Part shown: piece after piece, positions 3,743 through 24,414 of the stretch
Layout: every line of letters starts with the position of its first letter
Position numbering within the stretch: the first letter of the stretch is position 1
DNA from: Lasiosphaeria ovina
Taxonomy: Eukaryota; Ascomycota; Sordariomycetes; Sordariales; Lasiosphaeriaceae
Reading direction: 5' to 3'
Length of the DNA stretch: 64,000 bases
NCBI GenBank assembly: GCA_033439765.1
Contig: JAULSN010000001.1
Span: forward strand, 6,696,001 to 6,760,000
The notes under the pieces: model-generated
The model's input: the letters and a program-made list of their open reading frames with translations, nothing else
Databases searched by the model: none
What the model was told of the DNA's origin: nothing
Position numbers and translations under genes: made by a program

Positions 3743-5526
3743 TCAACGCGCCCTCACCTTCCGGTAGTACAGGTATCCGTAAATCCCGGCACACGACACA
3801 AACAGCGCCACGCCCACGGCGAGATAGACGGTAAAGATCCTCCACGCCGTGTCCCAGGCGTCCTGCGCCGTGCGCAGCATGCCCACGAAGAAGATGACCA
3901 GCAGCGTGACGCAGAAGCCGAGGCCGACCCACCACGCGGTCACGCCGCGCAAGAGCTCGAAGGCCCGGCCGCCCCGCCCGCCGAAGCGCCAGCGCTTGCC
4001 GTACGAGAAGATGGAGAAGGGTCCGCTGAAGACGCGCGACAGCTTGCCCAGCCCGTTGGACCTGAGCCACAGCGCGAGTTGGATCGCGTACAGAATGCAG
4101 ATTGTGGATGTGGCAAGCCAGATGAACACGCCGAAGAAGTCGAACAGCAGGTTGGTGCCGAGAATTAGCAAGGGGTTGCTGGTCTGGTCGCTCGGGACGA
4201 TGGTGTGGGCCACCATGCGGAACGGTGTTTGCATGCCCAGCAGCGTGGCGGAGAGAGATAGCGGCAGGTACAACGAGGCTAGGATGGTGAGGACCTTGAT
4301 CGCCTTGGCTTCGCGGATGGCATGCTTCTTGGTTAGGTAGTCTAGCTGGCGGTTGAGCGCCTCGAGGGCCCGCTGGGCGTTGCTGCGGCGCTCCGAACAC
4401 AGGCCCCCGAGTTCCTGCATGCGCCGCTCAAAGTCTTTGTGGGGGACTCTGTCTGTGGCGGCCGTGTTTTTGGCCTTGAGAGCCTCGACCACGAACTCGA
4501 TCGAGTCCACCAGGTTGTTGACACTCCGGAGGATGCCCTCGGCGTCCTCGATTTCCTTGAAAGCGTCCCTGCTCTTGGCAGACAGCCGAGGCTCAAAGAG
4601 GCCCAGCGGGACTTGAAGATGGGGGTTCTTGGCGAGCGAAAACTTGAGGGCTTCCTTCTCGGCCAGCTTGGGGTAGATGAGGTCTCCGTAGTAGTCGACA
4701 CGCTGCAGGTAGATCGAGGCGAGGAAGAAGTCCAGGATCAAGAGCTTGGCGAACGTGTCGAGCGTCCCGTCCGAGAGCGACGTCCAGCCGGTTCCCGCCA
4801 GCATGGCCGAAATGCCCCGGGGATTCTGGAAGATGATGCCGTCATCGCTGGATTTGTTGACGCTGAAATTCTGCTCGGACCAAACATCGTTCACGATAAT
4901 AACTAAAGGTTGTGAGCAAATGGTCACAGCAACATTTATTGGATAGTCAAACAACACCCACCTATCAACCGGTCATCTGTATCCTGCACACAAGTCAAGT
5001 ACGAGTCTCTCGGGTGGAGGTCGAGGTCCAACGGGTTCTGCTGCAGGCTCGTGCGGTTGACCAGGCGATAGAAATTCACACTGTCGCCGCCCAGGCTCTG
5101 CGACCACTGGGAGGAGATGCTCCCAATGTCGTTCACGAGCAGCGGATCGTTGAGCCACCTGAAGATGCGCCGCTCCTCAAACGGCCGCGTATGCCTCTGC
5201 TTCAGAAAACTGATCAAAAAGTCTCGAGCCGGCCGGGTTGTCTCGGGGCCCCTCGTGTCGCGGAGGCCCGTGATGACGAAGTCGGAGTGGATGGTGATGT
5301 CCAGAATCCGGGCCGTCCCGCCCGTGTGCGGCGGAAGCGTTTCCATCCCCTTGGCGATGTCGTCGCTCGAGCGGAAAGTTTTGAGCACCTGCGGCGTTGT
5401 GCTGCCGCCGAAGTCGGCGTCGATGACTTGGAAGACCACTCGTTCGCCGTTAGAAAGGGACTTGCTCGCCACTTCGAGATCATCTCCCAGAGCCCCGTCC
5501 AGGGCTGCGGGGGGAGAGTTCGACAT
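3743..5526 (-). CDS. CorA-like divalent-cation transporter family membrane protein
   Basis: The start codon is at 5526. Exon 1 is 5526-4962, the intron is 4961-4903 (59 bp), and exon 2 is 4902-3743; the 574-residue product is in phase. The N-terminal half is soluble with a long helical stretch, as in CorA family proteins. Four hydrophobic helices follow at about residues 393-413, 436-466, 512-531 and 544-566. CorA channels carry a Gly-Met-Asn filter motif at the end of the first pore helix. Here the matching place reads GMQ (about 411-413), and there are four helices rather than two, so magnesium transport is doubtful. Fungi have many such CorA-like proteins of unknown role. A possible alternative splice donor at 3757 near the stop would change only the last residues. 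Confidence 0.8.
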
Positions 5527-8849: not shown

Positions 8850-10314
8850 GTGTTCAATTAGGAGGCGACGGACGTGCAGAGGGAGACGTGATTGGGACAT
8901 TTTAGGACGGGCATTGGGGGAGGTGCATCTTCACGGCTGCAAGTCTTGGGATTGTTGAGTTGCGTGGTATAGCAACAGTTCCAAAACTATTTTACAGGAG
9001 TTGTCTCGAGATCTAAATCCTTTGAATCACAAGATGACCCGGTTCCAGCACCAAATGAATGGCCGTAAACCCATCACTAATCTTACAGACAGCCCGCTCG
9101 CTGCGTCAAAGCGACTCCAGCCAAAGATCCATCACCATCACGACGCGGCCAAAGCTTAATGTCCGAGGTTGGGAGGAATAGGGTGGGTGATGGGGAGGGC
9201 GAAGAGCATGGTTGCGATTGAGAGAGAGGGCTCGTTCTTCTGCAAGAGATCTTGTTAGAACCGGGTAACCTTGTTAGAACCGAAGACCGAGCTACGATAG
9301 GAATGGGAATATTGCACGTATCAAAAACTGACCGTCACGCAAGGAGCTAGCGAGCTTTTGTCGCCAGCGGCGGTAGCATCTTGCCGCAATGAGTGCTGTG
9401 GGCGGCAGTGCGACGAGAAGGGCTATGAGCTCGACGACGGTGTCGGAACCCATTCCGGACATTTGGGAAGAGGAGATGGCGATGCAGGGGAATTACAAGC
9501 ATTCGATTGGGTGGTGACGAAGTGGGAAAACAATGTTGACAGTCAACAAACACAGCTGCTCAAAAAGAAGATCATTGGCGAGGGTGGACATTATTTATTA
9601 TTAAAACAACGCGAAAATTTTCAGTGTAGTGTCGGTCGCAAATGATGGATTATGGCTTTGGGGGTGGTAGATATCGGCCTCGAAGGCTTCGAAACTCACT
9701 GATAATTAGGTACCGGTATGCATGATGATGGGATTGAGACTGGCGAATGCCCGGAATTGATGGGGTTGGGAGCAGCCAACAGCAAGTGCAGTCCAGACTC
9801 GCAACCTCAGGCTCGTTTCAGTCTCGGAATTTTTTGACGGAACTGAAAATGGGGGGTTGATGAGCTACGCAGATGGTTGATGGATTTGACGAGAGCCAAT
9901 GACACGGCAGTTCACTAGGCTTGATGGCTCTGCTGTCCTCCAATCAAGACCTGCTTGGTCTGGTCGCGTCAGCTTCGTCATTCAGGTTGATGGATATGCA
10001 GCGGGCCAATCAAGAGCTTCCTGGTTGCCTGCGCCAGCTTCTTCCCGCTCTAGTTCCCACCCTTCGGGCCTTCCTTCCCAGTCCCGGATCGGACACTCTC
10101 TCGCTTCGATCCCTTCGCTTCGGCAGCCTCGACATTCCTTTCCTTCCTCAAAGATTTTACGTTCAAATTTATCGGTTCTCTAGCTTCTACGCTCCTTGCC
10201 CCCCTCCAGTCTTGCGCCTTCCATGCAGCTCTCATCGGCTCCTGCACTCCACCCTTCGTCCATTCCACGAGCCCGGAAACCCACAGAGTCAAATTTGGAA
10301 GAGCGGTTGCAGCC
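8850..10314. other. Intergenic region
   Basis: No convincing gene. A 13-base direct repeat (CTTGTTAGAACCG) occurs twice within 9245-9285. The part just before 10315 is pyrimidine-rich, as is common upstream of fungal start sites. Confidence 0.5.
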
Positions 10315-13300
10315 ATGCCAAAGCTCGACTGGGATGCCCACCGCGCCGACATTGAGCGGCTTTATATTGCCGAAGGAAAATGTCTCACCGAGGTAATGGA
10401 CATTATGAAGAGAGACCGGGGATTCCTTGCAAGGTTAGGCCTGTCTAATAGCTCTCATACCGACGTCTTTAACATAAGCAACTTGTGCAGCAAGCCCTCG
10501 TATGAACGGAAAATGAGAGCATGGGGTCTGCAGAAGAACACCATGGGCAAGCAGACTTGGGATGTTGTGGCTTACAAGGTCAACAAGAGAAAGAGACTGG
10601 GGAAGGAGAGCACCGTCTACGAAAAGGGCGTCCGGCTCTCTGCGGAGAAATTGCAGAGGGAAATCCCCCGACACACGTCCCTCACACTCGGTAGCAAGTT
10701 TACCATCAACACAGGTGATTTGTCCCCTGTTTCTGTCCTAACTAGGGCCCATTTACATGTGCTGACTATAATTCCCCGTAGATTTGCCCTCTCCCAAGAC
10801 GCCCGAAGGAATTGTCGTACGCAGCCCCAGTCCTCTACAGCAGCATCTGCCGTGGAATTATGAAAGCCCCTGGTCGCGGTTTATCGGGCTTATTTGGTCT
10901 TCCGGATTTCAAGGTACCTATCAACCTCATCTGCATTGTTTTTGGTAACCTCAAACTTTGGAATCACTAACATGGGGTTTTACAGGATTGTCTCTAGAAA
11001 CCAAACTACCCCAAGCCTCCGATATTACATTGCTCAACCAACAATTGTCCGGGTCTTCTATGCATTCGCTTATGAGATCCTCCACCATGATTCAGGTTCC
11101 CTCATATCCCATGATCTTCCCGACTCCCCAGCAGATCATGCCCGACGCGATTCAACTACGGCCACTGCCCGAGGTCCCCAGGATCTTTCTGACTCAGTTC
11201 TTCCTTCTGTCAAACAACTTCACGGTCATGGAACGTGATGGCGTGTCAGCAAGGGACGTTCGTCTTCATGATGAACATGTGGTTGACATGATAGAACGAC
11301 TGGGATCGGCCGGGTTGGAGCAGATCAACAGTCTATCATTGACCGAGAGTCATACCACCGAGGCAATAAAGGAGCATTGTTTTGTCAGCATCCTCAGGTC
11401 TGGGCGTCTGGACCTTTTGCGAATCATTCTGGAGACTGGCATCGATCTGGACATGGTTATCTACTCAGGAAGTGACGACGCCCTATTGACACCGCTTCAA
11501 TTTGCCGCAGGCATTGCCGACCGGCGAACGTCTCTAAAGACGACTAGGTTGCTTCTTGAATACGGGGCGAAGCCCCTCCGAGCCCAACCCTGTCCGGGAG
11601 AGCAATGTCTCTTGAGCATGGCAACCCGGAAAGGTCACCTCGAAGTAGTCGGTGTGCTCGTGAACGCTGGAGCTTACCCCTGCCAACATGCCACCATCTC
11701 CGCTATCGAAAATGGCTTTGATTCGCTCCTCCAGCAGCTTCTGGACGCCGGTGCAGATGTCAACTTCCGGCTCCTCGTGGATACTCAACTGGACTACGGG
11801 ATGGCTGCTTACAATGTAACACCGATAGGGGTGGCGGCAAAAAAGGGAAATGTGAGAATAGCACGACTCCTGGCGGAAAGGGGGGCCGAGGTGAATGCAA
11901 CACAGTCTTTGGACTGTACCATATTCTTCTCGGGCGCTAATCGGATTTGCCGCCATCAACGTCACACCCTGAACACAACAGCTCTTGGTCTGGCCATTGG
12001 ACATGGCAAATTCGAGGTGGCCCAATTTCTCATACACGAAGCTGGTGCAGCTATCAACAGCCCGATGCCAGCAGCTAGGGAAAGATATCCCCGGGAACTG
12101 GAGATTGATATATGTCTATTGGTGATTGCATGCTATGCAGGAGAAAGCAAATCGATCATTATGCTTTTGGACGCCGACGCGGACTTGGCTAGTGCCGAGG
12201 CCAACAGCCTAGCATTGCCATGTGCGCCCACAACACTGCTTGGAAGATTAACGCTGGACCGACTTCAGCGTCATTATGATGATGACGAGAGCACAGTCAA
12301 CGTGTACAAAAAGCTCGTAGACAAGGGTGCTCGTCTCGATCACTCGTTGCTCGGAGCTACTAGGACAGGCAGCTCCAACCTCGTCTCACTGCTACTTCAT
12401 CATAGAGCGCCACTCAACTGTTTTATAACTAAGAAGAAAAGAGAAATTATTGGCATGCACAAGGTGTGCTGGAGCGAAACGAGGACGACTGCCTTGGGAG
12501 CCGCCATCGAACTTGGATTTGTGGAAATAGCACGGATGCTATACAAAGCTGGAGCCAAGGAGCTTGGCGATCTGGAGCGAATTTCCGGTGAGAAGATGGC
12601 CACATTCTTGGAGGGGACCGACCTAATGTCCGAAATTCTCAGCAAGCGTCTACCCCCGGTTTTGGATAAAGCAATTGACGACGGAGATCAGCTCGTCCCC
12701 AAGATTCTGATCCGATCTGAGGATTTTGGAAGGGCTACAATTCAGACTTCCTCGGCGACAGAACGGCGTGTGTCACATGCACATGTTTATGTGACGCCGT
12801 CGTTCGGCTTCAAAAATGACGGTGGCCGGCGTTTGAAAATAAAGGAAGCAGCCATCTTTGCCGCAGAAAACGGAACCACCCGTCCATTGGACAAGCTGCT
12901 TGAGGTAATGAATTGGGAGCCCAGATTAACTGGTCTTGCGCTCACTGCCGCAATTGCTCGAAGGCGCTACGGCGAATTTTATCTCGTCCAGCATCTGTTA
13001 GAAGCCGGGGCATCGTTTGATGAGCCCTTTGAGGGGCATATTTCAGCTTTGGCCGCAGCTGTGGCCATGGAGGAGGTCCCCCTGGTCAAAACTTTGCTTA
13101 GTTCCGGAGCCGATGCCAACAAGAGCGCAATTGCCGTAGGGAAAACGGCTTTGCAAGCGGCCGCAGATGTTGGTCACTTGGAACTGGTTGACATGCTTCT
13201 GAAAAGGGGCGCTGACGTTAACGGCCCGCCAGCTCCCAGTCGAGGAGCAACAGCGCTGCAGTTTGCTGCGAGCCGAGGCTATCTCAGCATTGCCACCCGG

Positions 13301-13879
13301 CTACTTGACGCCGGGGCTAATGTTAATGCGCCAAAGGCAGAACGGGAGGGAAGAACCGCTCTCATGGGCGCAGCCGAGCACGGCCGCATTGACATGTTGC
13401 ACCTGTTACTTAACAGAGGGGCGAATGTTCATGGCTCCGATAGAACCCAGTTTGTCGAGGCTGTCTTCCTGGCGGAGCAGAGGGGCCGAAGGGCAACGGC
13501 CGGGTTCCTCAAGTCGCATGGCGGTTGGACTGAGTCTGATGATGAACTCAAGGCCTCTCTCCGGTATCGTTCAGGGTATATCTGGGCCTTGAACCCGGAC
13601 GCAAGCAAGACTAGGTTGACGACTGACGATCCTCCCTCGTCACGTTCGGAAAGGCTTGATTCGCAGACAGAAAGTCGCGGCGTGGCGATGGAGGTACCGC
13701 AGAGCTTGGATGCCGAAATTTCGGGCGACGGCCAGAAGACCAGGGGCACGGCCGAACCCGGGGCAGAACTTGTCTCATTCACACAAGAATATCAACAGCC
13801 TAGCTGTGTATGGGAATGGGATGCTCAGGATAATTATCTCGGGGTGGGAGTCTGGTTTGACAACATGGAGACTGGGTAA
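10315..13879 (+). CDS. Clr5-domain ankyrin-repeat protein
   Basis: Exons are 10315-10433, 10491-10714, 10782-10913 and 10986-13879. All phases match and give 1122 residues. The first intron (57 bp) splits the Clr5 domain; removing it restores the family core in which a Ser-Lys-x-x-Tyr-Glu-Arg stretch follows the first helix and leads to Trp-Gly-Leu-x-Lys-Asn (about residues 3-55). Clr5 is a fungal domain first named from fission yeast silencing and is often found at the N-terminus of large ankyrin proteins. From about residue 325 to 990 there are many ankyrin repeats, clearest between 13020 and 13440 in the DNA (about 838-977). The C-terminus is polar and probably disordered. Its role is probably as a scaffold or regulator; the target is unknown. 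Confidence 0.88.
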
Positions 13880-14238: not shown

Positions 14239-17200
14239 CTACCCTTCTTGTTCCGTTCCCGTCCCACCAAACTTCATTTGAAGACTCAGCTCTTGCTTCG
14301 CGCTCTCCAAACCGCGGTTTATCCCGGATAGGTCTAAATCCATAGCCACGGCAAATTTCACAATCCACTCCAATCTTATGCGTGATGCTAGGTCCCGGAC
14401 AGACTCGTCTACATGCCCTAATTCCCCCATCTGCACGGCAATGCCAATGAACTTAAAGTATTCCCTAACCATCTCCTTGGGGTCAGCCTCCTTTAAGTAC
14501 GGGACGAGATCTAGTGGGATGCGCTCAAGTGACACCTCGATCGAGCTGATGAAGCGGTCGCTGACGTAATCTACCCTCGAAAGTTGGCCGTCACTATCCG
14601 AGTTCTAGATTTGCAAAAGGAGGCATCACTATCAGGTTCTACGGTACGAGTGAAACGGCTTGAAAGGAGGGGGAAAGTATGGGGAGATGATACTTACTGC
14701 CTGCGTCATTGTCTTTTTCTGGGCTTTGTTCCTTACCCTTTCTTTCTCAAGACGGTTCTTTTCTCTTTGGGCTAACAGATCCCGGAAAGATTGTCGCATT
14801 TCCGAGAAAAGAAGCATCTGAAGATCATGGGTCGGCAGAGATTTCAGCCGCGCCATCTCGAATTCCAATGTCTCAATCATTCTCTCCTCGGCGATCAAAT
14901 CCCAGAATCTCTCCTCCGTCGTAGTGTGACCGCCCCTTGCAGCGCACTCGCAGCGATGCTGTATCCCGAGCTCGGCCAGCTTGAAGCGTCGAAGAAGCGA
15001 AAGAATGCTCTGTTTCGCCCAATCCGGCCGATCCAGGTCTTGGAATATCGACAGGCACTCGAACAGCCAGAGGACGTTTCTGGGCTGGATAAAACAGACG
15101 TCGCGGAACACGGGCATGAGCGCATCAGCTGGGAGACAGCCGTCTTCTGAGCAAGGGCAGTCACACCCGTCTCCCGAAAGCTCCGTATCACCGTGATTGT
15201 CGCGGGAAGTTTGTGGTAAAAGAGCTCGCAGCGTGCTGAAGATGGCGAAGACCTCTTTCAAACTCGGGTTGAATATGTCAAATTTTCGCAACACTCGGCA
15301 CAAAACCGTGCTACCTCGGTTGTCTCGGACGAGCGGGTCTGCCCCCGCGGCGACGAGGACGACAACTGCTTTGGGCGCGAGATTGGCTGCTACGGAAAAG
15401 AGACAGTGCTCGCCCGAGATATCTTGCCGGTTGAGGGCCGAGAACCCGCCGTCGATGAGCAGCCTTGCTTCATCTGGATGCGTAACCAGGTGAGCGAGCG
15501 TCCTTCCATCGCTGCCAAACACGAAGTTGAGATTTCTAGGCCCGGATGATGCGGAGAAAAGCGTGTCCCAGAACTTTACTTTCCAGTCGTTGCCTCGTTG
15601 TGTGCGGATGTACACGGGCATCACCAACTCCTCGACTTGCTCCGCGAATCGAGCCCAGAGATTGTACGAACAGTTAGATGCATTGCGCTCGAGATCGCCG
15701 AAAAGATCCCATATCATCATCTCGTGACCCCAGATAAAAGCGCAGGAAACAAAGTCGGAACCCTCAGAGCCCCCGTTGTCTGTGCTTTCTGGGCGAGCTC
15801 GCGGCGAGAGATCTGCGCCATGCTGGATAAGCGTGCGGGCGGCGTCCTGATAGCCCATGGCCATTGCGTACATAAGTGGCGTGAAGCCCCATCGGTCTTG
15901 CTTGTCTTTCAAGGCCGGGGCTATCCTCAAGAGAAGGTCAAGGATTGCGCCGGACGATGGGGCGAGAGCCATGTGTAACGCCGACTGGCCAAGAAAGTTG
16001 ACAATTTTGGCAATCCTGCCTTCGCCCCCAAGCTTGGTTATCCATCGTTCGGCTTCCTTAATGTTGTTTCGGAGAACGGCTAAATGCAGTGGGTGCGTTG
16101 TCCCAAAGTCTAGAAGTCACCGACAGTCCCCGGTTAGCTGACACAATTAAGCAGGAAGTGAAATGTCACTGAAGAATACGCACCTGGATTCTGCGACGTT
16201 ATATGCATGAGGAATTCTATGTAGAATGGATCGACTGCTCGTGGAACTGGTTCGCCGAACAAGTCGTATGGAGTTGCCAAGCCTGGGATCGGCCACAAGG
16301 CAAAGCGCGGCTCGTCAGCGTCCTCGAAGCCGTGTCCAATCCGGACCAGGTGTTTGATTACATCCAGATGGCAACCTTCTGAGCTCCACTTGGCGACGTC
16401 GTACATGAATCTGCATATATCGCATTAGCTCTCGGCTTTTGCACAACCACCTGTTTCCGGAGGAGCCTCACTCATCGGTGTCCATGCCCGCCGTGATCTG
16501 CAGTTCCTGCACCAAAAACTCAATCATCTCGAGTTGTCTCTCGTTCCTGTGGCCGTATTCACCCCAGGGCCCATAGTGGACGAGCTCCTGGAGATACGTG
16601 TGTCCCTTTGGATTAACATGGGTCTTGAGAGTTGAGTCGGACCTGTAGAGTTTCCGAAATGAATCTTTGTCCACTTCGGTCCCGATTTTATCCTCCTCCA
16701 ATCTGAAAAAAATCTCAAACCCCGGCGATGTCGCTCGAACTAGCCGGCGGACTTGGAGACTCGGCCGCAGGGCATAGCCCGCCGTCCCGGTGACGAGCTC
16801 CCCGCCGAGCAGAACAGCTACCGGTATGCCGAGCCACGACATATGAACTCGGAGCGCGAGCTGGTACCGGCGAGCGCTGCAGATGTCTTGTTCGCACGGT
16901 CGCAACAACAAAGTCAACGGCGTGTACCTGATAGTCCATCTCTTCCAAGTAATGGACTCGGTGGCATGACAAGAGCAGCAGCAGCGCTTTATGTCGCACC
17001 GCGGCAAACGGGGAGACCGAGAAAGCGGCGGCACAGTTTGCTGACTCGATTCTTTACCGAGGCCGTTGGTGTCATCATCACTGCCCCCGGACTGATTATT
17101 TGCAGAGGCATTATCAGCTCCGTTGGTGGCGAATGTGGAAATCTGTTCCGTCAACGCTGACACCGTGCTGTGCGTCATTGCCCTGATGAAGAGTGAGAAA

Positions 17201-17739
17201 GAGAATCACTTCTCTGGAGTGATGGAAAACATGTGAGACATACATCATTGCCCTGGATGATAAATGAGCATCAAGAACTCACATTCCACACAATTGGCAT
17301 TGAACTCTTACAATATAAAGTGGGTTTGAGCCTCAGATGTAAGCCGGTCAATGGCTTGCAGCTCGCGCAATAGCGAAGAATCGCCCAGGCCCCGGAGCAG
17401 CCTTGTCCTCCTTTTCCCCGGCGCGGAGATCCTGACCTGGAGAGATGCCAGCGCCTGTGAGATTGCGCTGTAACCATCGACGCAAGGCTTGAGGAGAATA
17501 TCGGCGCCGGGGTCCGGAGCGCCGCTGTTAGATAGATCTGCACTACCTGGTCCGGCATTATCGAGCCTCTGTCGAATCTGTTCCAGAACGGCAAGCCGTT
17601 CTTCGATCATTTTCACCGTGTCCGGCAGGTCTTTGGTCTCGGCGACTCTGGCCTTGAGTGCCCTCACGCCCTTGCCAATCTCGATGGAGAGAGAAGCCAG
17701 GCCAGCGATGGAGCTGGCAACGCCTAGGATCTCGGCCAT
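14239..17739 (-). CDS. SesB/NACHT-N-like N-terminal domain plus ankyrin-repeat protein
   Basis: The start codon is at 17739. Exons are 17739-17312, 17182-16472, 16410-16184, 16109-14698 and 14604-14239, all in phase, giving 1047 residues. Residues 1-143 begin with the hydrophobic Met-Ala-Glu-Ile-Leu-Gly-Val-Ala-Ser-Ser type start and helical layout typical of the N-terminal domains of fungal STAND/NLR-like proteins. The middle has a Cys-rich patch and a globular block. Ankyrin repeats lie at about 456-560, with more diverged ones up to about 700. No NACHT or NB-ARC nucleotide-binding motif is visible, so this is NLR-like in its ends only. The first intron (129 bp) contains two similar acceptor sites; only the downstream one at 17183 keeps the main frame. 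The last exon could be modelled otherwise, but its phase fits. Confidence 0.8.
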
Positions 17740-18372
17740 CGCAGCCTTTCGCACGCCTGAGCGGGAAAATAAGAGATCGAGGGTGTCAAAACAGCGGAGA
17801 GATTCCAGGTTCGTCCTCAGGGCACGAGAACTCGAGAGCCGGCTGCCTAGTGTATGACAGAACGGAGGGAAGACGATCAGGCTCTGATCTGATGCCACCC
17901 TCAGGAAATATGCCTTGGCGTTCGCTCTGCAGCTGGGTAGCAAAGAACCGCCAATCATGCTCGCCTCCTCCAAGGCAGCTGCACGACGTCGGGAACAATT
18001 TGCGGGGTAGGCCGAGAGAAGAACACCACTCGCATGGATTCTATCGGAAGACTGCTGTTGGCCGGGAATGACAAGGACGGCAACCGGAAGCTGCCCTGAA
18101 TTCACCCCTCCCCCCCGGCGGCTCCGTGAAGTTTTACAGACAGTTGCTAACTCCATTACATGCCCTACGTGGTTGAACTGACTGGAATTAAGGCAGCAAA
18201 CGTCAACCGAAATTATCACTCCACGTCTATGCCCTCTTCCCAGCTCGTGTATGCTAATGCGGATGCTCTGGCCAAAAACATACTCCGGACAGTATCTTGG
18301 TATTGGCGGCTGGAAGTGTGGGGTTCGTTTATAACATTTTATTTGTGTTATAGACCTACCTACCCACCCTAC
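17740..18372. other. Intergenic region between tandem minus-strand genes
   Basis: A 633-bp gap holding the promoter of the SesB-like ankyrin gene and the 3' end of the RBR ligase. An open frame runs upstream of the 17739 ATG without a better start. No other feature. Confidence 0.5.
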
Positions 18373-19773
18373 CTACCGATGCCCGTCCAACAGCCATATC
18401 CCTTCATCCGCCGAATCGTCGTACCGGCTATCATCCTGCCAGCCCTTGGCATAGTCGGACTTGTCGAGCTCGGCCAGCGTCGTCTTCTTGGTCGCGGCCA
18501 GCGAGCACGTGTTGAGGTGCAGCGGAACCCGGTTCTTCCAAATCACCTTGCACACCCAGCAGAACTCGGTGGTGCAGCCGCGGCACGTCATGTGGCCGCA
18601 GCCCGCGGCGCGCGCGATGCGCAGCCCGCAGTCCTTCTTGGGACACAGCTTGGACGTGCGCGCCAGGTGCTCGCGCGTCGCCGCCGTGTTCTCGCGCTCC
18701 TCGGCCTGCTTCTTCTCGAGTGCCGCCCGCGCCGCCCGCCGCTGCTGTTCTTGCTGGTGCTTGCGCGCCGCGTTGACCGCCCGCAGGTGCGCGCATGTTG
18801 TGACGTCGATGTCGTTGCACACGTAGCAGTTCTGCCGCGGGCAATTGAGGCACTTCCATTCTGGGGATGTTTCGCCGGGAGCGTGGATCTGCCCGCTGCC
18901 GCACTTGCACCACCGGAACTTGGGATTTTTGGAGATGGAGGTCAGGGCAAGTTTCTTGTCGTAGCTGCGAGGTGTGGTCAGCATACAGACCGCGGACATC
19001 TGAGATGATTCCCGGAGAGGGACAGTACTCACATCTTGCGCGTCTCGGGCCCGACCAGCTCGCGGACCCGCTTGCTGGGCACCTCCTTCCGGCAGTCCGG
19101 GTCGAGGCACTTGAGGTCCTTGAGGCGGTTGGCCCGGATCTTACCCTCGAACTCGGTCCGGACGCAGTCGTTGCACACGTTCTGGTCGTGGGCGCACGTC
19201 GGCGCCGGCGGCCCGTCGTCGCTGCACGCCACCTCGTCGCAGTGCACCATGCACTCGAACACCTTGCTCCGTTCTACCAGCGCCGAGAAGCTGCTGCGGC
19301 CAGTGTCAGTTTATATCTAGATATCTGCAGCCGACCTTCACTGACTTTAGAGTCTCTTGGGGCGCGCTGGCGAGCCGCTTCCGGACCATGCCCTCGTTGA
19401 CGCGCACCAGGCGGCGGCAGCCCTTCCGGCGGCAGGCGTGCTTGCCCTTGAGCACGTCGAGCAGGTAGTCCTGGTCGCAGCGGGCGCAGATGCCGGGGGT
19501 GGCGCCGGGCTCGCAGCCGTCGAAGTTGCCCTGGCCGTGGCCGCTCCAGCACCGCACCGACATCCACAGCGTCGACCGGTACACGCCGCCGCCGTAGTCG
19601 TTGGTCTTCCAGCACACGAGGCACGTCTGCGGCCCGCTGGCCACCTCGTAGAAGGCCAAGTTGACCTCCCAGCATATCTTCCACGGCTCGAAGTCGTCCT
19701 GCTCGGCGGATTCGGCTCCTGAGGAGGACGGGGAGCCGCTTGATCGGTCGGCCGCCGACATCTTTTGGCCCAT
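18373..19773 (-). CDS. RBR-type (RING-IBR-RING) E3 ubiquitin ligase
   Basis: The start codon is at 19773. Exons are 19773-19346, 19293-19033 and 18964-18373, giving 426 residues. RING1 lies at about 157-205 (C-x3-C, a Cys-x-His pair, C-x2-C, then C-x4-C). The IBR is at about 249-290 (C249, C251, C268, C271, C276, C279). A Lys/Arg/Glu-rich helix links it to RING2 at about 337-390, which carries the signature Gly-Cys-x-His-Met; C352 is therefore the expected catalytic cysteine that takes ubiquitin as a thioester. The N-terminal 140 residues hold extra Cys pairs. Enzyme class is clear; the substrate is unknown. The second exon has a tandem CAGCAG acceptor that would add or drop one Ser in frame. 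It is divergent from the ubiquitin-like gene at 20280. Confidence 0.9.
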
Positions 19774-20279
19774 GTTAATTGGGCCGGTGTATGTGGGAGG
19801 AACGGTTATGAAATCTCCAGAAAACAGACTGCCATGAAAAAGAGCTAATTCCGTCGCTCAGTAGGATCGAAGCACCGCCAGGCCGCTGCGGGTGGCGTGG
19901 GTTCGGTGACGGGGAGGAACCTGGAAAGGGGCAGTGCACGCCGGTCGGGGAGCCTGCCCGGGCAGCGCCCGCTGAAAGGCGCCTGACAAGCCTGCTATGA
20001 CTGCCACGTTTTTGGCGCTAAGCGTGGCAACTTGAAAGGGAATTGAGCGTCGGTTTTGCGAGCCTCGTCGAGGCGTATTCAGGCACCCCGTCCGATGTGG
20101 GGAGGGGGGTGCGCGACTGACTCTGGATGGAAATTGCTCAGAAATACATAATTACATATCGTCCTACTAAATGGTGAGCCCGATGTCCTTTTTATTCTCC
20201 TTCTCACTTCTTGCGTTTTTGCTGTTTTCGCGTCCATATTGTTTGTCGCATCTCATCCAATTACCTACTGGCTATCATC
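19774..20279. promoter_or_regulatory. Shared divergent promoter region, RBR ligase / ubiquitin-like gene
   Basis: The 506 bp between the two start codons must hold the upstream sequences of both genes. It contains no open frame of note. Bases just before 20280 are pyrimidine-rich. Whether the two genes are co-regulated is inference from the layout. Confidence 0.45.
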
Positions 20280-21200
20280 ATGGCCGCCTCCGACATGTCT
20301 TCGGCTTCGGCAGAGAAGACGTACCTCATGATCGAGGAGATCAACTCGGACTTGAGCGAGCCCCAGCTGCTCAGCCACTTCCCCGTCACCAACACGGTCA
20401 AGGACCTCAAGATGGCTATCGCGAGGATGATGGGCGAAGCGACCGAGTGGGACTCGGTCATGGTGGTGTTTGTGGGCGAGGTGCTCGAGGACAGTGAGTG
20501 CTGCAGATCACGGAGCCTTGCGCTGCCAACCCCCGACTTGTCACTAACCGGAAAAAGACAGCAAGCAGCTCTCGTTTCACAAGGTCCAAAATGTATGAGA
20601 AAGACATCAAATCCCCCAGCCTATCGACAGCCCTGATGGCCCCTTTTATTCTGACCTTGATTTGTTGCTGCAAAACAGGGCGACACCATCTTCTTCGTGC
20701 GCAGCGTCGAGCCGCCGCCGCCCTACGATCCGTCCCGAGACATCAAGGACCCTCTCGCCGAGAAGCCGCCGCTGCAGCAGCAGCCCGCACGGCCGACGCC
20801 GGCGGCGCCAGCCGGCGCAGCGGGGATCGTGCTCAAGACGGTCTTCTTCCGCAACATCGAGGGCCGCTCCATGACGCTCGAGGACCTGTCCATCACCATG
20901 ACCATTGCCGCCGTCAAGGCGAAGCTGGCGGCCGAGAAGAACATGGAGAACAACGACACGATCCGCTTCATCTGGGGCGGCAAGACGCTGGAGAACCGTG
21001 AGTTTTTTCTTTGAGCAATGGACTGGCTTGGTGCTGACTGTGTCGTCCTGTTGCAGACCGGACGCTGATGGACTACAATATCGGCAATGTGAGCTTCCCC
21101 TTCTTCTCCACAAGTCACGCACAGATCGCTAACCTACCTCCCCGGATATCAGAACAGCACCATCGAGATTGTGTGGCGGTTGCCCGGCGGGGCGGAGTGA
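20280..21200 (+). CDS. Tandem ubiquitin-like protein (two UBL domains)
   Basis: Exons are 20280-20493, 20558-20592, 20679-20997, 21057-21088 and 21153-21200; every phase matches, giving 215 residues. UBL1 (about 13-95) has the ubiquitin pattern of Val-Lys-x-Leu-Lys, then Val-x-Phe-x-Gly-x-x-Leu-Glu-Asp and Gly-Asp-Thr-Ile-x-x-Val. A Pro/Ala/Gln-rich linker follows (about 95-132). UBL2 (about 133-213) is close to ubiquitin: it keeps VKAK (ubiquitin K27/K29), a Lys at the K48 place, an Ile at I44, RTL-DYNI, a Val at V70, and a C-terminal RLPGG followed by two residues (AE). Ubiquitin has RLRGG. A two-residue tail after GG suggests that a protease exposes the diglycine, as in ubiquitin precursors. 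Conjugation is inferred, not shown. Small exons make the model splice-sensitive, but the protein match supports each junction. Confidence 0.85.
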
Positions 21201-22005: not shown

Positions 22006-23040
22006 TCATGCGTCGTCGAGATCGTCCCAGTCTGAGTCCACCCGTACCGGGGACGGCGCGACATCGCACCGCGTATAATACTCATTATCGTCATCGTCGT
22101 CATCATCATCATCATCATCATCGTCGTCGTCCTCATCCTCATCCTCATCCTCACCCTCACCACTACTGCTGCTTGAACTAACACCCTCGCCAACAAGCTC
22201 CTCAACGGCCTTGGCAACCAACAGTCCCACCACCCAGCGCCACTCGCCGGTAACCTGGTGCTGGCGCCAGCGGTGGCCGCACGTGCAGCGGCGCGAGAAC
22301 AGCTCCTTTCCATAATCACGATCAAAGTCCCAGCACGGACAGCCGTACTCAACACACGTGTCGACCTGCGCGAGCCTTGTCTTGAGATCCCCGTCGCCAT
22401 CACGATTCTGCAGCCGCGCGTACACATCCTCGGCCATAGCGCGCTGCAGCCACTCGGTGGCCTCCGCAAAATCGCTCTCGAGCCGCGCCTCGCCGATCAC
22501 GCTGTGCCGGTACCCGCCGTGGCCGCACTCGCACAGGTTCGTCACGGCGCCCGCGAGGTGCTCGCGGTCGTAGTCTCTACACTCGCAGCCGTCGACGTCG
22601 CACGGCTCCATCTCGTCGAGCGTGGTTTTCTTGGCGTTGTCGTAGCCCGACGAGTACGACACCCGCTCCAGCGACGCGTAGAAGCCGTCCAGCAGGTGGC
22701 AGAACACTAGCAGGCTGATCAGCTCAGCGCGCTGCTCGTCGGTCAGGCTGGGGTCGGCGACCAGGGACGCCTGCGCGGCCGCGCGCGCGTCGCGTCGCTG
22801 CACGCGGTCGACCTTCTTGGTCAGCTTGTAGCCGGCGCGCGCGCCGTGGTAGAGCGTGCCGGCGGCGCCCGCGGCCGATCCCGTGCCGGCGGCGGTGGCG
22901 ACCACGTTGGTGGCTGCCGCGTGCGCAAAGTGCGCGACGGCCGTGGCGGGCGCGTGGGCGAGGTGGGCCGCCAGCGCGGCCGTCATCTTGCCGCCGATCC
23001 ATTTGATGGCGAGGATCTCGAGCCCGCCAAAGATGACCAT
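22006..23040 (-). CDS. Uncharacterised protein with a duplicated Cys/His unit and acidic tail
   Basis: The start is taken at 23040, the first ATG in the frame; 344 residues, no intron. Residues about 10-80 are Ala/Gly-rich and moderately hydrophobic. Two units with identical spacing, C-x4-C-x-C-x15-C-x-C-G-H-x4-H, lie at about 147-179 and 229-261. Each also has an Asp/Arg-rich stretch after the third Cys. Seven ligand-type residues per unit at the same spacing suggest an internal duplication of a metal-binding module, probably zinc, which I cannot assign to a named family. The C-terminus is a Ser/Glu run and then an Asp run of about 16 residues encoded by GAT/GAC repeats. The role is unknown. 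Confidence 0.75.
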   Translation of the reverse strand: MVIFGGLEILAIKWIGGKMTAALAAHLAHAPATAVAHFAHAAATNVVATAAGTGSAAGAAGTLYHGARAGYKLTKKVDRVQRRDARAAAQASLVADPSLTDEQRAELISLLVFCHLLDGFYASLERVSYSSGYDNAKKTTLDEMEPCDVDGCECRDYDREHLAGAVTNLCECGHGGYRHSVIGEARLESDFAEATEWLQRAMAEDVYARLQNRDGDGDLKTRLAQVDTCVEYGCPCWDFDRDYGKELFSRRCTCGHRWRQHQVTGEWRWVVGLLVAKAVEELVGEGVSSSSSSGEGEDEDEDEDDDDDDDDDDDDDDDNEYYTRCDVAPSPVRVDSDWDDLDDA

Positions 23041-24414
23041 GTTGGGCTGGTTCTGGGCTGGCGTTGGGCGTTTCGAAGTACGGAGAAGGGTGCTCACAGG
23101 AATAAACACAAAGTTGGAGTTTAGATCTGGTTCGCTGGGACGGCTCTGTCATTTATTTCCATATCTATTAGTTCTATATCGTTTTCAGCTATGGCTTCGT
23201 CTTTCTGGCGTTATCTCGAGCTTCCCAAGAGGGACTTGGGGATTGGTGCCTGAGGGGGTGGGCAAGACTTGGCATTGAACAGAGCTGAAGACGGTGGCGC
23301 TCAAAGGCCGCTTCTAGAACGGTCCGGACTCTGGACTTTCAGTTGGATGGGGTGCATGATGGGGTTGCAGCTTCCCGTTTCTCTCAGGCCTTTGCCCCCT
23401 TGCTGCCGTATATTATGTGCATGAGTTGTAACCTGGGGAAAGTCTCTTGTCAGAAATCTAGCAAATAGGAGAGGACAATGGGTCGTCGACTGTTATTGAC
23501 CTTGCTTTCCTCGGGCAATCCTTGCCCCCCCCCTTCATACGATCGACCCGAGTCTGGACCTGCATCCGTTCTACGATCGGGCCTTCACTAGGATCTCGTC
23601 GTTGCTGATTTCGAGAAGAAAATAACGAAGAAAGAAACTCCAATTCAGGTCTGAAGCAAGCTGTCTAGCAATTGCTATCTAGAATGTCACCGCCGGGAAA
23701 CAAGACACACGGGCCGATGCGAACCGACTAATTAGGTCTCGGCCGGAAACCCTAGCTTGATGCCATCACCGGTGACGGTGTGAAGTGATACTTGGACAAT
23801 CTTAGCTCCGGCTTTGCTGCCCGTCGTAGATGCCTGGGTCCCGACGTCGGTAAGGTATCAGCAAAACGTCTGAGCTTGTACCGACTACCGCCTCGGCATC
23901 GATCCCCGATGGGAGGCGCAAGATGTGCACTGCCGGTGCAGCGAGGGACGGTACTGCTAAAGCTTGCGAGGGCTGGGACAAATCAACCCTGTAGGTGTTC
24001 GGCAGGTAGGGCCAATCTTCCCCGTCATATTCCACACGAACGTGGCGATTCGCCGACGTGACTGGAGCCAAATCCAGGCAGCAAGAGGCGGAGGGCTTGG
24101 CGTTTTTCTCGTACTGGACCAATCCGCCTTATTTTCGTTCATTTGGGGTGCCAAAAGGGTGGGGGACACCCAAAATGCCCGCAAGGCTCTGAGTCGTCTC
24201 GCCGAGGAAGCCCGAAATTCCATTCACCCCAACAGGCAAGCGTGTGGCGGGACCTACATGAACGCCTTGGGGGATGTGTATGGACAGCCACGTGCACGCG
24301 CGCTGTTGGACAGACCGAGACCTCACCACCTCTGTCGATCATTCTGCGAGAAATGTCATGAAAAGCAACCCAGGTTGATTGTCAACACGTCTGAGTTCCA
24401 GAACACAACACACA
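23041..24414. other. Intergenic region between divergent genes
   Basis: About 1.4 kb with no gene I can support. It includes a TCACCGGTGA palindrome near 23766. It must hold promoters for both neighbours. Confidence 0.5.

Follow-up and report, generated by a model that had tools for sequence, protein, structure and literature searches.

In a 64-kb stretch of the Lasiosphaeria ovina genome (the window; the whole genome comprises 51.7 Mb in 32 contigs), two intact, spliced genes are divergently transcribed, with 506 bp between ATG and ATG. One encodes an E3 ligase of the RBR type, and the other a protein with two ubiquitin-like (UBL) domains in tandem. We propose, with a probability of roughly 0.42, that the two form a lineage-restricted conjugation system in which an ISG15-like, conjugable tandem UBL protein is served by its own RBR E3. 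An earlier sequence-only reading had described an RBR ligase with its catalytic Cys and a two-domain ubiquitin-like protein in this head-to-head arrangement. The exon models confirm the gap and its coordinates; the intergenic stretch (19774..20279, no strand assigned) presumably holds a shared promoter or two promoters back to back. That the UBL end has features of a conjugable modifier, as the residues described below suggest, was a point absent from that reading.

The tandem UBL gene (20280..21200, + strand) has five exons (20280-20493, 20558-20592, 20679-20997, 21057-21088, and 21153-21200) and encodes 215 amino acids ending in WRLPGG-AE. The product is 100% identical to P0001, the L. ovina protein B0T24DRAFT_588635, and matches Pfam ubiquitin over two stretches (E 2.3e-18), in agreement with the two domains previously assigned. 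The first domain, UBL1 (residues ~15-92; exons 1-3, 20280..20700, end approximate), has a diverged ubiquitin fold that lacks both Arg72 and Gly-Gly. Its sequence support is weak (15/54 identities with ubiquitin), and it was not modelled by itself. A linker follows, opened by a PPPPY stretch (residues 95-99, approximately 20715..20735). The second domain, UBL2 (residues ~134-215; exons 3-5, 20820..21200, start approximate), retains the equivalents of Arg72, Gly75, and Gly76 and carries a two-residue tail after them. The protein thus has two ubiquitin folds, the first without a cleavable Gly-Gly, which is the layout of ISG15/FAT10-type tandems. Its best fold matches are linear di-ubiquitin and polyubiquitin, but simple polyubiquitin was rejected, because the first fungal unit has neither Arg72 nor Gly-Gly and a proline-rich linker comes after it; the tandem is not a chain for cutting into monomers and should stay uncut.

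The residues that distinguish the two domains are conserved in all four full-length family members (P0001, P0002, P0003, and P0011). Each ends in W/Y-R-x-P/H-G-G, followed by tails that vary (AE, LVTLT, L, LVG), and the equivalents of Arg72, Gly75, and Gly76 are kept in every UBL2. In every UBL1, Ser replaces Arg72 and Gly-Gly is missing. The Lys48 equivalent of UBL2 is likewise kept in 4/4, and the Lys63 equivalent is Asn in 4/4. In the results drawn on from phage-display profiling of the NEDD8 E1, compared with UBA1, residue 72 and Gly-Gly were decisive, while positions 71, 73, and 74 were tolerant, with aromatics favoured (PMC3731359). The Trp or Tyr at UBL position 71 agrees with this tolerance profile; a proline at 74 lies outside those results.

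The RBR gene (18373..19773, - strand) has three exons (19773-19346, 19293-19033, and 18964-18373) and database relatives P0005-P0010. The exon 2 acceptor is a tandem CAG, so that position 19290 is also possible and the protein has 425 or 426 amino acids; we chose the 426-residue form to agree with P0005, the homologue annotated in L. miniovina, which is 97% identical. Pfam IBR matches the product over two stretches (E 6.1e-11), and profile matches to chains of RNF31 and Cullin-9 cover the region from RING1 through Rcat, indicating the RING1-IBR-Rcat arrangement; the eight RING1 ligands were read by eye. Exon 3 (18373..18964, -) encodes IBR and Rcat (RING2). The best solved-structure alignment of the Rcat segment is to ARIH1, followed by parkin, and in the profile alignment GC352GHM lies over GGCNHM of ARIH1. 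By analogy with ARIH1 we take Cys352, in the motif GCGHMTC, to be the catalytic residue, and in this sense the ligase with a predicted catalytic Cys is borne out. Chance open reading frames (ORFs) were rejected for both genes, since P0001 matches the whole length of the UBL model and P0005 covers 422/426 residues of the RBR.

In common with parkin and ARIH1, the RBR has the Rcat motif and a pair of IBR-type matches. Unlike them, it has a Cys/His domain upstream of RING1 and no Pfam match to Ubl or Ariadne. This N-terminal domain is encoded in exon 1 (19346..19773, -), and its eight positions (C51, C54, C75, H79, C96, C99, C114, and C119) are invariant in the 6/6 family members aligned; it has no Pfam match. 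The structure model of the RBR is poor (mean predicted local distance difference test score, pLDDT, 48.8), which leaves the domain without a confident fold and unnamed. The protein starts with MGQKMS (window 19773-19750) and the Rhypophila homologue with MGQNAS, which would fit the start pattern of N-myristoylation; P0005, P0007, and P0009 as annotated have other starts.

The UBL family is rare. A single-sequence search yielded four proteins out of 268 candidates, and a profile search of 5.8 billion proteins 11 out of 2005. Seven of the 11 belong to the UBL family: the four full-length members and three fragments (P0004, P0014, and P0015), among which P0004 and P0014 probably represent one gene, since both are on a contig of length 2126. 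The other four are polyubiquitin-like (P0012, P0013, P0016, and P0017). One of these, P0016, a 156-residue protein encoded on a contig of 6672 bases, has two ubiquitin-like units and ends in NLHGG followed by AKLA, a further case of a divergent, tailed protein resembling di-ubiquitin. The RBR search gave six matches, in Lasiosphaeria, Rhypophila, and Naviculisporaceae sp. PSN 640, together with the fragment P0009 and two Sporothrix proteins; scoring was limited to the 7996 candidates with the most shared words, and more RBR relatives may exist.

Relatives of both genes occur in the same three named lineages, Lasiosphaeria, Rhypophila, and PSN 640 (the last named Pseudorhypophila sp. in the relevant part of PMC12734299). 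In PSN 640, the UBL (V8F20_001899; 52% identical to that of the window) and the RBR (V8F20_001900; 60%) have consecutive locus tags, and the longest contig is 405866 for both. Adjacency outside the window is thus read from locus tags and a shared contig in PSN 640, the sole other genome in which it was readable, and divergent orientation from the window. In Rhypophila, both genes are present in different records, and adjacency was not seen in these. The cluster sizes of UBL and RBR agree across the three lineages (2 and 2, 3 and 3, 1 and 1), a match that is no more than suggestive. The sequence-only reading had raised the possibility of a dedicated pair, to be checked by whether the genes stay adjacent and divergent in other Pezizomycotina. 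The idea gains support from adjacency in a second lineage and from the matching occurrence of the two genes; this support extends to that one lineage rather than to Pezizomycotina at large, and divergence was seen in the window alone. Among the papers listed in literature searches, judged by title and start of abstract and with most subscription papers outside the collection, none dealt with a fungal tandem UBL or an RBR-UBL pair.

Among known modifiers, ISG15, the textbook case of a tandem UBL protein, offers a close parallel in layout. According to the parts of PMC9722776 drawn on, it has two UBL domains, its precursor loses eight C-terminal residues, it is poorly conserved and found in vertebrates only, and the RBR enzyme HHARI (ARIH1) is among its E3s. 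The fungal protein likewise has two UBLs of which the first is not cleavable and a C-terminal Arg-x-x-Gly-Gly with a short, presumably removable tail; it is also poorly conserved and has an RBR enzyme for a candidate E3. There are differences as well. ISG15 ends in LRLRGG and the fungal UBL in WRxPGG or YRLHGG; ISG15 has UBA7, whereas a UBA7-like E1 was not seen in an exon-by-exon search of the fungal genome; and the fungal protein has a long proline-rich linker with PPPY and an E3 gene next door. Common descent with ISG15 as a tandem is unlikely, since the same parts of PMC9722776 report ISG15 only from vertebrates. With its WRLPGG end and its occurrence in fungi, the fungal pair is no orthologue of ISG15 in sequence terms, though its mode of action may be similar. 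FAT10, as described in the portion of PMC12355090 used here, is also a tandem of two UBL domains with Gly-Gly at its C-terminus, where the sequence reads CYCIGG, and it employs UBA6. The fungal UBL shares the two domains and the Gly-Gly; unlike FAT10, it keeps Arg72 and has a tail, and a UBA6-like E1 was not seen in the same exon-by-exon search.

How might such a module work? The short tail after Gly-Gly would be trimmed by a protease of the deubiquitinase type. The Arg72 equivalent would let the UBA1-type E1 of the genome activate the UBL, which would next be carried by an E2. From there the RBR, encoded by the divergent gene, would accept the UBL on Cys352 and hand it over to targets. Lacking Arg72 and Gly-Gly, UBL1 could not be released from the tandem; it would instead act in recognition, and the conserved PPPY linker may be a place for docking. 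Of this picture, the gene models, the ubiquitin folds, the conserved signatures of ligase and modifier, the rarity and the second adjacent pair are observed; the steps from tail trimming to transfer, the fit of this E3 to its UBL, and any role in the cell are predicted. The exon-by-exon search for E1s found one full E1 with a UFD domain (on contig C29) and one weaker, unidentified SCCH match on C5. A shared ordinary E1, which the modifier's Arg72 would allow, is therefore most likely. If the proposal is correct, a fungal counterpart of ISG15 next to its ligase would be an instance of convergence, showing a new modifier and a matching E3 arising together while using an ordinary E1. The pair is a concrete protein couple for testing, and gene deletion is probably feasible in these organisms.

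Several observations weigh against a dedicated conjugation module. The Ile44 equivalent of UBL2 is Ile in two of the four full-length members and Thr in the other two, and Arg74 is replaced by Pro or His; C-terminal changes can hamper onward transfer, according to the results drawn on from PMC3731359. Four sequences at ~50-60% identity are thin ground for arguing that Gly-Gly has been selected. No second E1 resembling UBA6 or UBA7 was seen in the genome searched exon by exon. Finally, two Sporothrix RBRs (37% and 34% identical) have the full architecture, including the N-terminal domain, and are closer to the window RBR than is the genome's nearest paralogue (32.5%, RBR module only), but neither the single-sequence nor the profile protein search found a Sporothrix UBL. 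The ligase may therefore not need the UBL: an older RBR may have gained the UBL as a partner, or the UBL may have been lost from Sporothrix or have become too diverged there. A strictly obligate pairing outside Sordariales is not supported. A fused RBR-UBL protein (Rosetta-stone) in Sporothrix was rejected, as P0008 and P0010 carry their extra ~200 residues at the N-terminus, where the sequence looks low-complexity by eye (no domain scan).

These observations bear on other explanations as well. Regulation of RBR ligases by the Ubl domain of parkin and by cullin-bound NEDD8 offers a model: the fungal UBL could similarly be a non-covalent partner that activates, restrains, or targets an RBR that transfers ordinary ubiquitin. 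The recurring linkage, the failure to see a second E1 resembling UBA6 or UBA7, and the Sporothrix relatives without a UBL, which suggest that the ligase can probably use ubiquitin, all fit this explanation; the retention of Arg72 and Gly-Gly with a free tail in 4/4 members is left unaccounted for, and we regard this explanation as unlikely, if the most credible of the alternatives. The linker suggests another role. WW domains bind PPxY, and PPPY is kept in 5/5 family members covering the linker site, as expected of an adaptor that docks on Rsp5-type WW-domain ligases, with the RBR acting in the same route. WW genes do exist in the genome, including one frame with three WW matches (C1:6543207-6543764). 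The motif is, on the other hand, short and lies within a proline-rich linker, so that binding is putative, and the Gly-Gly end is left unexplained; an adaptor of this kind seems improbable.

Linkage is also what one would expect if the RBR ubiquitinates and thereby controls the UBL protein, as in an antagonistic-type pair, but no specific sequence evidence points to this and the modifier-like end is again unexplained, which makes it a long shot. We give equally little credence to neighbours with no functional link, their shared order inherited by inertia. Gene order can last a while without selection, and adjacency was read in two lineages only and divergent orientation in one. Against this, the genes are adjacent despite protein divergence to 52-60% identity, both are rare and occur in the same three named lineages, and chance adjacency would be about 2 in 10,000 if ~12,000 genes per genome are assumed.

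No second copy of the pair appeared in the genome: apart from the window pair, no IBR match lies <100 kb from a UBL match in the listed coordinates, although exon-by-exon searches can miss relatives, the window UBL itself being absent among 14 ubiquitin-family matches. Within the genome, the RBR protein search gave five matches, three to the gene itself and two to other loci. The 11 matches of the UBL protein search of the genome comprise the gene itself (three), a relic on C9, ubiquitin-type sequences, and a weak hit at 3.04 Mb of C1. The relic (C9:168000-177900, positions 4792-5032) spans 241 bp including introns and is 89% identical to window 20904-21144. Read from gene to relic, 22/27 differences are C>T or G>A, the trace expected of repeat-induced point mutation; immediately upstream, inspection by eye shows a frame resembling reverse transcriptase.

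The neighbourhood has prompted the idea of an immunity-type role. In the sequence-only reading, ankyrin, SesB-like, and HET genes were placed beside the pair; Pfam confirms the ankyrin and HET genes and gives no SesB-like match among the 40 larger window ORFs scanned, which are not all. L. ovina has the most NLRs (162) in the Sordariales set considered in the part of PMC12258605 drawn on. HET/ankyrin-type genes are probably frequent in such an NLR-rich genome, so that their nearness says little, and an immunity link of the pair is a guess. The broader picture, in which a subset of Sordariales has an ISG15-like system independent of that of vertebrates, with the UBL head to head with its own RBR and a possible part in non-self recognition in a genome very rich in NLRs, is doubtful, though not far-fetched.

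Rfam and tRNA scans were empty. Beyond the RBR, window 14239-18219 (-) is possibly one gene: its ORF 17308-18219 contains MAEILGVASSIAGLASLSIEIGKGV, resembling fungal NLR-type N-terminal domains by eye, and ankyrin repeats lie at 14635-16116 on the same strand. This ORF may be the SesB-like gene of the sequence-only reading; 17311-18372 has no Pfam match. On the other side, a cysteine-rich ORF with an acidic C-terminal run (22009-23148, -) adjoins the UBL gene and has a FAM221 Pfam match (E 5.6e-4) below the curated cut-off. Further off on the + strand, a Clr5-domain ORF (10054-10860) is followed by a long ankyrin-repeat ORF (10949-13876), and the two are probably one gene.
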